From: Bacteroidales bacterium
Lineage (GTDB): Bacteria; Bacteroidota; Bacteroidia; Bacteroidales; UBA1402
Reading direction: 5' to 3'
Length of the DNA: 64,000 nucleotides
Assembly (NCBI GenBank): GCA_017464285.1
Contig: JAFUDT010000004.1
Location: 1 to 64,000 of the forward strand
Part shown: one piece after another, positions 21,044 through 24,368 of the stretch
How positions within the stretch are numbered: position 1 is the stretch's first letter
Layout of the letters: each line of letters begins with the position of its first letter
Notes under the pieces: model-generated
The model's input: only the letters and a program-made list of their open reading frames with translations
What the model was told of the DNA's origin: nothing
Database searches by the model: none
Made by a program: the position numbers and the translations under genes

Positions 21044-21103
21044 CGCGATTTTTGAAAGTTATAAATTATTTGGGGTAAAGTGCCCCGCAGAAAAGAAAGT
21101 TTT

Positions 21104-23380
21104 ATGCAAGCTCCATTTGTCAAGACCATTGACTTGGGTGATGGCAGAACCATTACCCTGGAAAACGGAAAGCTGGCCAAGCAGGCCGACGGTTCCGTGA
21201 TGTTGCGAATGAACAACATTGTTCTGCTCGCAACCGTATGTTCGGCCCAAGAGGTCACTCCCGGAACGGATTTCATGCCGCTGACCGTTGAGTACAAAGA
21301 AAAATTCGCCGCTGCCGGCCGTTTTCCCGGCGGCTTTACCCGTAGAGAAGGCCGTGCCTCGGATTATGAAATCCTGACCTCGCGTCTGGTGGACCGTGCC
21401 CTTCGGCCGCTGTTCCCCGACAACTATCATGCCGACACCATCGTACAGGTGACCCTGTATTCGGCCGACGACAACTGCGACGGCGACATGCCCGATGCTC
21501 TGGCCGGTCTGGCAGCCTCGGCAGCTCTGGCCTGCTCGGATATTCCCTTTAACGGTCCTATCTCCGAAGTCCGTGTGGCCCGTATCGACGGCCAGTTCAA
21601 GATTAACCCGACTTCGGCCGAACTTCGTACCGCCGACATGGACATCATGGTCGGTGCTACCATCGACAACATCATGATGGTCGAAGGCGAGATGCAGGAG
21701 GTTCAGGAAGCCGATCTGCTCGAAGCCCTCAAGGTGGCTCATCAGGCCATCAAGGTGCAGTGCCAGGCTCAGATCGAGCTGGCCGAAATGGCCGGTAAGA
21801 CCGTCAAGCGTGAGTACTGCCACGAAGTGAACGACGAGGACCTGCGCCGCGACGTTCGCGAGAAAACCTATGCCAAGGCCTATGCCTGTGCCGCTTCCTG
21901 CAATACCGACAAGCATTCCCGCGAAGCCAACTTCAAAGCCATCATGGACGAGTACCTCTCCACCATGACCGAAGAGGAACAGGAAGAAAAAGCCGAAATG
22001 GTGGGTCGCTATTACCACGATGTAGAGCGCGATGCCATGCGCCGTTGCGTGCTGGACGAAGGCAAGCGTCTGGACGGCCGCAAGACCAACGAGATCCGTC
22101 CCATCTGGTGCGAAGTCGATCCGCTGCCCGGTTGCCACGGTTCGGCCATCTTCACCCGCGGCGAAACCCAGTCGCTGAGTTCTGTCACGCTGGGCACCAA
22201 ACTCGACGAGAAGATTGTCGATGATGTCCTGAACCAGACCCCCGAGCGTTTCCTGCTCCATTATAATTTCCCGCCTTTCTCGACGGGTGAGGCCCGTGCT
22301 CCGCGTGGTGTCGGCCGTCGTGAGATCGGTCACGGCCATCTGGCCTGGCGTGCGCTGAAGGCCATGCTGCCCAAGGATTATCCCTACGTATTGCGCGTGG
22401 TTTCCGATATTCTGGAATCGAACGGCTCCTCTTCGATGGCCACCGTCTGTGCCGGCTGTCTGGCCCTGATGGATGCCGGTGTGCCTCTCAGGAAGCCGGT
22501 GGCCGGTATCGCCATGGGTCTGATCAGTGAAAACAAAGGGACCAACTATCGCGTCCTGTCCGATATCCTGGGTGATGAAGACCACCTGGGCGACATGGAC
22601 TTCAAGGTGACCGGTACCCGCGACGGTATCACCGCCACCCAGATGGATATCAAGGTGGACGGTCTTTCGTACGAGATTCTGGAGAAGGCTCTGAATCAGG
22701 CCCGCGAAGGTCGTCTGCACATTCTGGACAAGATTACTGAAACCCTGCCCGCTCCGCGTCCCGACCTCAAGCCCAATGCTCCGCGTCTGGAAGTCATCTT
22801 CATCCCGAAGGAATTCATCGGTGCAGTCATCGGCCCTGGCGGCAAGATTATCCAGGGTATGCAGGAGGAGACAGGTGCTACGATTACCATCGAGGAAATC
22901 GACGGACAGGGTCGTGTCGAGATTGCCGCCGTCAACAAGGCTTCGATTGATGCCGCCCTGGCCAAGATCAATGCCATCGTGGCCATTCCCGAAGTGGGCA
23001 AGGTCTATCAGGGCAAGGTGCGCTCCATCATGCCTTATGGCGCCTTCGTGGAGTTCCTGCCTGGCAAGGACGGCTTGCTCCACATTTCCGAAATAGAGTG
23101 GAAGCGTCTGGAGACCGTCGAGGAGTCCGGCCTGAAGGAAGGCGACGAAATCGAGGTCAAGCTGCTCGACATCGATGCCAAGACGGGCAAGTTCAAACTC
23201 TCCCGCAAGGTGCTGCTCGAGAAGCCCGAAGGTTATGTCGAGCCCGCCGAACGCGAACGTCGTCCGCGTCCTGAGCGCGGTGACCGCCCCGACCGAGGCG
23301 AACGTCGTCCCCACGGCGAGCGTGGTGACCGTCGTCCCCGTGGTGAAAACAACGGTGAATCCCAGCCTGTTGCCGAATAA
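21104..23380 (+). CDS. pnp: Polyribonucleotide nucleotidyltransferase (PNPase)
   Basis: 758 residues from the ATG at 21104, which gives the expected [20 protein letters not shown] start; a GTG at 21080 in frame is less likely. Two RNase PH domains ([11 protein letters not shown] and [15 protein letters not shown]) flank a helical region, followed by a KH domain with [17 protein letters not shown] and an S1 domain near residue 640. PNPase degrades RNA 3' to 5' by phosphorolysis. The last ~45 residues are rich in Arg, Gly and Pro ([12 protein letters not shown] and similar), a disordered RNA-binding type tail. A terminator follows 24 bp after the stop. Confidence 0.97.
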
Positions 23381-23403
23381 TCGACAGATTGAGTGATATT
23401 TGT

Positions 23404-23436
23404 AAAGAGGGTGACCCTAAGTCATCCTCTTTTTTA
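23404..23436 (+). terminator. Intrinsic terminator after pnp
   Basis: Stem AAGAGGGTGAC with GTCATCCTCTT (one G-U wobble), short loop, then a run of six or more T. Confidence 0.85.
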
Positions 23437-23700
23437 GTGAGCCACCGAAGTCTCACAAAAAACCCTTCGCCGCTCCCTGTCCCTCCAACCTGCCGCCACC
23501 TGCCGACTCGTAGAGCCGTGGCCTGCGGTGAAAGGGCAGCACCCTACGCAGCACAGCCACCGTGGTGTACCACTGGGTCTCCCTGTCCAATATGTTTGGA
23601 ATGCTCACGAGTGTTAAATCACATTAATGTCATCGTTATTTATTGTAAAGGCTGTTTGATTCCATATCTGCGCAGGATATTTTTGCCCAAAACGAAAGGT

Positions 23701-23856
23701 ATGTTTGCAAAATATCCGTCTCGGTATATTCATGTCCTGCTGACAGCGTTTCTTTTGCTGTGCTTTGCTGGTAGCCTTTTTGCCGCCGGAAGCTATAGGC
23801 ACTACCTTCCCGGCGGCTCAGTGATGGTGGAGACCGTCTCACCTGGCAGTACTTAA
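23701..23856 (+). CDS. Possible 51-residue exported peptide, doubtful or decayed
   Basis: ATG at 23701 opens 51 codons: a basic start, a convincing hydrophobic signal core (HVLLTAFLLLCFAGSLFAAG), then about 22 residues ending at TAA. Past this stop the same frame continues with another stop 13 codons later and then a further open stretch of about 30 codons, which could be a decayed longer gene. The codon usage is unlike the flanking genes, and there is no clear promoter. It is as likely to be chance or a pseudogene fragment as a real small secreted peptide. Confidence 0.25.
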   Translation: MFAKYPSRYIHVLLTAFLLLCFAGSLFAAGSYRHYLPGGSVMVETVSPGST

Positions 23857-23918
23857 CCTGTCGGCAAAGATTCTCCAGCCTTGGCTGAATAAAACCTGAA
23901 CGTTTTGGGGTCATTCTT

Positions 23919-24028
23919 CTACCTTACTACTATCTTACCACAAAGAACCTTCAAAGAAGGCACAAAGAAGGTACGGCCGAATTTGGTTGTCAGATTACAG
24001 TCTTACGACTGAACCCGGTTGACGGGTT
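23919..24028. repeat. Array of five 11-bp units followed by two abutting hairpins
   Basis: Five consecutive 11-bp units run from 23919 to 23973: two of one type (CTACCTTACTA, CTATCTTACCA) and three of another (CAAAGAACCTT, CAAAGAAGGCA, CAAAGAAGGTA). CCTTC-AAA-GAAGG at 23948-23960 is also a perfect small inverted repeat. Then come two directly adjacent perfect stem-loops: CAGTC-TTAC-GACTG at 23998-24011 and AACCCG-GTTGA-CGGGTT at 24012-24028. All of this lies upstream of the -33 box at 24053, so it is not in the leader of the DUF2007 gene. Confidence 0.6.
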
Positions 24029-24052
24029 AATGACAGTGAAAGCCTAGCCCGA

Positions 24053-24084
24053 TTTGGAAATATGAAAAGGAAATCATACCTTTG
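24053..24084 (+). promoter_or_regulatory. Promoter of the DUF2007 gene
   Basis: TTTG at 24053-24056, 20-bp spacer, TACCTTTG at 24077-24084. Both boxes match the Bacteroidota consensus. The ATG at 24126 follows after a leader of about 35 nt. Confidence 0.8.
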
Positions 24085-24125
24085 ACAATCTTGTATCTGC
24101 CGCTATAACAGAAAATAAAAAGAGA

Positions 24126-24368
24126 ATGAACGAGAAAGAAAGGACTTGTGTGCTGGCCGAATATGGCTCTTTGGGCGAAGCGGCTGTGATCAAAGGTCTG
24201 CTGGAGGCCAACGGGATAGACAGTTTCATCTCCGACAGGGGAGCCAACAGTCTATGGCCTGTAGGGACTTCCAGTGTCATCAGTGTCCGGCTGAATATTC
24301 TGGAAAAGGACCTGGAAAAAGCAAAGGCGGTTTTGGCCGCCGCCGAAACCGCAGAGAATTCCGATTAA
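24126..24368 (+). CDS. DUF2007 domain protein (putative signal-transducing)
   Basis: 80 residues, a single DUF2007 domain: VLAEYGSLGEAAVIKGLLEANGI, then SDRGANSLWPVG, then ISVRLNILEKDLEKAKAVL. The domain has a ferredoxin-like fold related to P-II proteins and is often called putative signal-transducing, but no ligand or partner is established. It is monocistronic from a strong promoter and converges on the DEAD-box helicase gene with 28 bp between the stops. Confidence 0.85.
   Translation: MNEKERTCVLAEYGSLGEAAVIKGLLEANGIDSFISDRGANSLWPVGTSSVISVRLNILEKDLEKAKAVLAAAETAENSD

Follow-up and report, generated by a model that had tools for sequence, protein, structure and literature searches.

BrickBuilt of Porphyromonas gingivalis is the closest described element to the one reported here, and the two are alike in anatomy and behaviour without being the same family. 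As far as the excerpted description goes (PMC4596501), both occur in Bacteroidales, are intergenic, have no coding function and are multi-copy (19 copies of BrickBuilt, 6 here). In both a tandem minisatellite is flanked, by leader and tail in BrickBuilt and by arms here, and both vary in unit number and in presence or absence, which for BrickBuilt was reported between strains. They differ in the unit, which is 23 bp in BrickBuilt and 11 bp here, and in the 12-bp terminal inverted repeats like those of IS5-family elements and the target duplications at some copies described for BrickBuilt, neither of which was seen here. Leader and tail ends of BrickBuilt are of the GAGACCTTYGCA type, from which the ends of our copy C19b (see below) differ by eye, and an association with Rhs-type genes is found here, whereas none is mentioned for BrickBuilt in the excerpt of PMC4596501. 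Direct TAACTGA repeats of Beggiatoaceae, Cyanobacteria and some Bacteroidetes (excerpt of PMC4679880) are likewise short, intergenic, spread over scattered lineages and mostly located ahead of genes, and their author suggested a role in regulation or rearrangement; they differ in their 7-bp unit, in lying mostly within several bases of start codons in the main species, and in that the excerpt describes no arms. Among the papers listed in a search of the open-licence PMC literature, none was seen to describe the present element.

The window analysed here is the whole stretch of 64,000 nucleotides, positions 1-64000 of contig C19 of a 2.37-Mb draft genome (G000, 83.5% complete). The element lies in the gap between pnp (21080-23380) and the gene of an 80-aa DUF2007 protein (24126-24368, + strand; PF09413, 39.3 bits at a cut-off of 25.7), and a DEAD-box helicase gene is also among its neighbours. 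Five 11-bp units (2 + 3) in register, followed by two abutting hairpins, had been described in the original prediction and were present exactly as stated. The core element (23903-24028, + strand, as are all features of the gap given below) comprises a left arm, an 11-bp array and a right arm. Two 11-mers, CTACCTTACTA (23919) and CTATCTTACCA (23930), make up the left arm at 23919-23940; they are followed in the same register by an array of three CAAWGAASSYW units at 23941-23973, namely CAAAGAACCTT (23941), CAAAGAAGGCA (23952) and CAAAGAAGGTA (23963). The right arm or hairpin module (23974-24031) contains stem-loop 1 (23998-24011; 5-bp stem, TTAC loop), which begins 25 bp past the array end, and, without any gap, stem-loop 2 (24012-24028; 6-bp stem, GTTGA loop). 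Further downstream, TTTG and TACCTTTG at a spacing of 20 bp (24053-24084) form a pair that resembles a promoter of the Bacteroidetes type and would belong to the next gene. The proposed location of the element upstream of the next transcript fits this promoter-like pair; as the array ends about 80 bp ahead of it, the element need not be transcribed.

Two consecutive CAAWGAASSYW units were matched twice in the window, compared with a mean of 0.09 in 100 shuffles, none of which reached two, although this comparison is not blind since the pattern was derived from the window units themselves. The array was neither listed by Tandem Repeats Finder at score 30 nor flagged by a lag-11 autocorrelation scan, because its three units offer too little repetition and vary too much. 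Independent evidence for the array is its multiplicity. As detailed below, we consider it likely that the window feature represents a copy of an interspersed minisatellite element which is lineage-restricted, works in a BrickBuilt-like manner and is partly associated with Rhs-type genes.

Abutting hairpin pairs of such strength numbered three in the window, while 20 shuffles averaged 1.25 when no gap was allowed and 2.8 with gaps of 0-2. When the two stems were compared over three homologous copies, stem 1 was paired in all three with two one-sided G-U changes, whereas stem 2 retained its outer four pairs and lost the inner two of six in two copies, and no compensatory change was detected in either. 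With a chance frequency and no covariation, the hairpins were rejected as the main feature; we conclude that they are not what is conserved, and that the right arm, about 55 bp in length, only happens to fold into two small hairpins. An untranslated RNA, which had also been suggested, is not borne out by these data either. That both hairpins are part of a small or leader RNA appears very improbable: the + strand of the window copy does fold better than its shuffles (z -2.75, 1/200), but the homologous copy C19b folds like shuffled sequence (z 0.06), stem 2 is broken without compensation, the promoter-like pair lies downstream of the hairpins, and Rfam gave nothing in the window at the gathering score and nothing up to E 1 in 23380-24200. 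A low folding energy was also calculated for the stretch at C10 (z -3.27), owing to units of opposite sense within its array. The statement that the structure is not a terminator was confirmed, with no intrinsic terminator (G+C-rich stem followed by a T run) on the + strand and one weak site on the - strand, which corresponds to the chance rate.

Searched as DNA against G000, 23880-24060 had seven matches at five places, window included, and the unit pattern gave 20 matches at six places in G000, compared with none for the reversed-pattern control. These six arrays (C19:23941; C19:267948-267987, termed C19b; C1:824-863; C10:60869-60941; C20:119490-119573; C7:71376-71437) are spread over five contigs and contain 3, 4, 4, 7, 8 and 5 units, respectively, as listed by hand. 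The C7 array starts 17 bp before the end of a Fic-domain ORF. The window core aligns with C19:267889-268024 (81% over 137 bp, E 9e-28), and both 11-mers of the left arm immediately precede the array at C19b too, as they do with one base changed at C1, while C10 retains the second in part. The right arm was found at only three places in G000, the window, C19b and C10, where it is inverted and left of the array; 42 of its 58 window bases are invariant among the three copies, and in the remaining array copies the DNA right of the array is partly or wholly different. Of the classes considered in the original prediction, the end of a multi-copy intergenic element is thus the one that agrees with the data, with six loci in G000, two in one relative and arms in common. 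An iteron array was rejected, as the neighbours (pnp, DUF2007 and the helicase) include no replication initiation gene and the copies are distributed over five contigs. REP palindromes are sequences of 20-40 bp with a GTAG or CGTC tag at one end and a high copy number (excerpt of PMC3733652); assignment to this class was rejected, too, because of the three places of the right arm and because no such tag was seen by eye directly beside the stems. A phage or plasmid origin was likewise dismissed: 23660-24060 had no match in phages or plasmids, and the two-unit pattern had no exact match in viral_contigs.

Arrays were present in two of 13 family genomes, G000 and G004 of the same genus, the latter being the only one with arrays among five same-genus relatives (all drafts). 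G004 showed 13 pattern matches at two places (control 0). At C19b the element is contained in 162 bp of G000 (C19:267857-268018) that are absent from G002. The DNA on either side (C19:267197-267856 and C19:268019-268199) aligns to contiguous DNA in this sibling species (C158:30800-31459 and C158:31460-31643), which represents a near-clean empty site, and tRNA-Phe and tRNA-Pro flank the gap in G000, G002 and G004. A gain in G000 is the simpler reading, and loss in G002 is also possible. The flanks of the junction are A/T-rich and its position is ambiguous by several bases; within this limit on the exact ends, neither a terminal inverted repeat nor a clear target duplication was seen by eye for the 162-bp insert. 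G004 carries at the same junction a different insert of about 1.1 kb (C72:33867-34975) with the start of an Rhs-family gene (66% over 144-161 bp, promoter region included). To the known repeats of Bacteroidales this adds a compact one, an interspersed minisatellite of 11-bp units for which there is both a near-clean empty site and, in a sibling species, the start of an Rhs-type gene at that junction.

A difference in whole units was observed at the Peptidase C1 locus, where the array is common to G000 (C20) and G004 (C59), the two versions being one 11-bp unit and some bases apart. Comparison of G000:C20:119200-119490 with G004:C59 revealed near-identity of the DNA between array and start codon and of the first codons, while the 2.5-kb locus is about 80% identical overall and the DNA upstream is unrelated except for about 40 bp. 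Recent exchange could account for this near-identity, as could strong constraint, in which case the site might have a regulatory role. A G002 contig matching the 5' part of the Peptidase C1 gene had no array upstream, and for the C7 array no orthologous site was found within the genus. Between pnp and DUF2007, where the window has the element, both G002 and G004 lack an array and instead encode a protein of 518-532 aa, which in G004 matches GH43.

The gap in the window of G000 also contains, upstream of the array, a module A (23436-23530) and a truncated 5' end of an Rhs-type gene (23701-23856), of which the first 51 codons remain and end in a stop. The 51-aa piece has a signal-peptide-like start by eye and gave no family match itself, but homologous DNA was found at C10:60130-60367 (91% over 238 bp), C1:564 and C7:85071/87970, and the C7 homologue (L092:3121-4605) matches Rhs_assc_core TIGR03696 with 61 bits. 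Module A recurs at C1:383-478 (85.6% over 97 bp, E 4e-20), upstream of a CAAWGAASSYW-type array. The window and C1 agree in all three modules and in their order and are thus copies of one compound; at C10 a longer Rhs-type fragment precedes the array. Arrays thus co-occur with Rhs-type gene remnants at three sites, and in three of five G000 places with Rhs-type gene-start DNA an array follows within about 190 bp downstream, which by our own arithmetic is very unlikely to be due to chance even when the window and C1 are counted once. From these three sites, and from the tRNA-Phe/tRNA-Pro junction with an array in G000 and an Rhs-type gene start in G004, it could be argued that the Rhs-type cassette either includes array and right arm as an integral portion at its 3' end or favours them for landing, solitary arrays being what gene loss left behind. 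We regard this as possible but doubtful, since the two Rhs-type genes of the C7 cluster (C7:85121-88507) have no array, G002 has Rhs-type DNA and no arrays, the right arm at C10 is inverted and on the opposite side of the array, and the single compound at the window and C1 leaves few independent cases. Should the connection with Rhs cassettes prove right, it would offer a handle on the gain and loss of Rhs genes. The genes of the C7 cluster (L092) have signal-peptide-like starts with small genes between them and are perhaps toxin-immunity pairs. Another repeat, of about 150 bp (CACTTACGCAGTACCATAGACCGGGTTTA...), is present in two to three tandem copies (89% alike) at the contig end at the start of C1 (L041:4-368); the idea that these are pieces of 5S rRNA was not borne out, with only weak and implausible Rfam matches.

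Returning to the minisatellite element, its architecture would be a left arm of two 11-mers, an 11-bp minisatellite of the CAAWGAACCYW type with a unit number that varies between copies, and a right arm some 55 bp long. Insertions of a unit of about 110-165 bp may have dispersed it, either by itself or along with an Rhs-type cassette (the three modules that the window and C1 share in order suggest the latter), and its unit number may change by slippage or unequal recombination. Such an element would be mostly passive in intergenic gaps, with at most a secondary effect on nearby promoters, and its appearance is that of a mobile or relict repeat more than of a regulatory switch. Points against this reading are the arrays at C20 and C7:71376, which have no Rhs remnant beside them, the array-less Rhs cluster of C7, the restriction of arrays to one of five same-genus relatives, and the ends of the C19b insert, where no terminal inverted repeat or clear target duplication was seen by eye. 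With one unit array at several loci and a variable unit number it falls into the loose class of interspersed minisatellites. It is also multi-copy, short, non-coding and present or absent between relatives, as MITEs are, and was not filed as a MITE because no terminal inverted repeats were seen by eye.

In an order-level scan, matches were obtained in two of 393 genomes, G000 itself and G349 (a single match with two mismatches). An exact scan of the genome_contigs collection led to 13 stretches, ten from Paludibacter sp. STB_57, two from RGIG3412 (G004) and one from Eubacterium, which was set aside as it is only two units long. Paludibacter sp. STB_57 has an 11-bp unit of its own, CAATGAACCCT, with 91 matches (control 0) at 29 places counted by hand (L047-L058, L095-L124). 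Ten of these loci were inspected and are located between ORFs, with L051 overlapping the start of a long ORF. These elements have the 11-bp unit and the multiple copies in common with the window element, but they are palindromic, with a central AGGTTTACCT that has inverted units on its left and direct units on its right, and have other, conserved arms; the two are not known to be homologous.

The strict phase of the units would also suit a helically phased operator, occupied cooperatively by a protein on one face of the helix, once per turn, so as to tune the following promoter. The 11-bp phase is exact, and among 47 units from eight arrays positions 2, 3 and 7 are invariant and 1, 5 and 6 nearly so, with variation mostly at 4 and 8-11, although this profile is biased, as the arrays were found by the same CAAWGAASSYW pattern and the units picked by hand. 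The window array ends 80 bp ahead of the promoter-like pair, and at the Peptidase C1 gene the array and the DNA after it are kept in two species. The unit strand points at the start of a downstream gene or tRNA in five of the six G000 arrays, but in only six of ten Paludibacter loci by longest-ORF calls, and this bias was therefore dropped as evidence for regulation. Furthermore, the genes downstream of the G000 arrays (DUF2007, homoserine O-succinyltransferase, tRNA-Pro/serS and Peptidase C1) have no common theme, and arrays are missing ahead of the orthologous DUF2007 and homoserine O-succinyltransferase genes in G002 and G004. An operator function is thus unlikely; if the 11-bp phase is nevertheless selected, it would point to an undescribed DNA-binding protein.

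A wider generalisation, to which we give slightly less credence still, would be that arrays of one helical turn (11 bp) are a recurrent intergenic class in Bacteroidia, with different units arising in unrelated genera because an abundant DNA-binding protein or a recombination process favours an exact phase of 11 bp, and used by Rhs-type cassettes as docking or exit sites. When 395 Bacteroidia genomes were scanned at period 11, AACC occurred five times at 11-bp spacing in 10 of them, compared with five for the reversed control, at most a mild excess. Arrays of 11-bp units with different sequences were also seen in other Bacteroidia (L180, L183, L188 and L189), some of them just before a start codon or a promoter-like motif.
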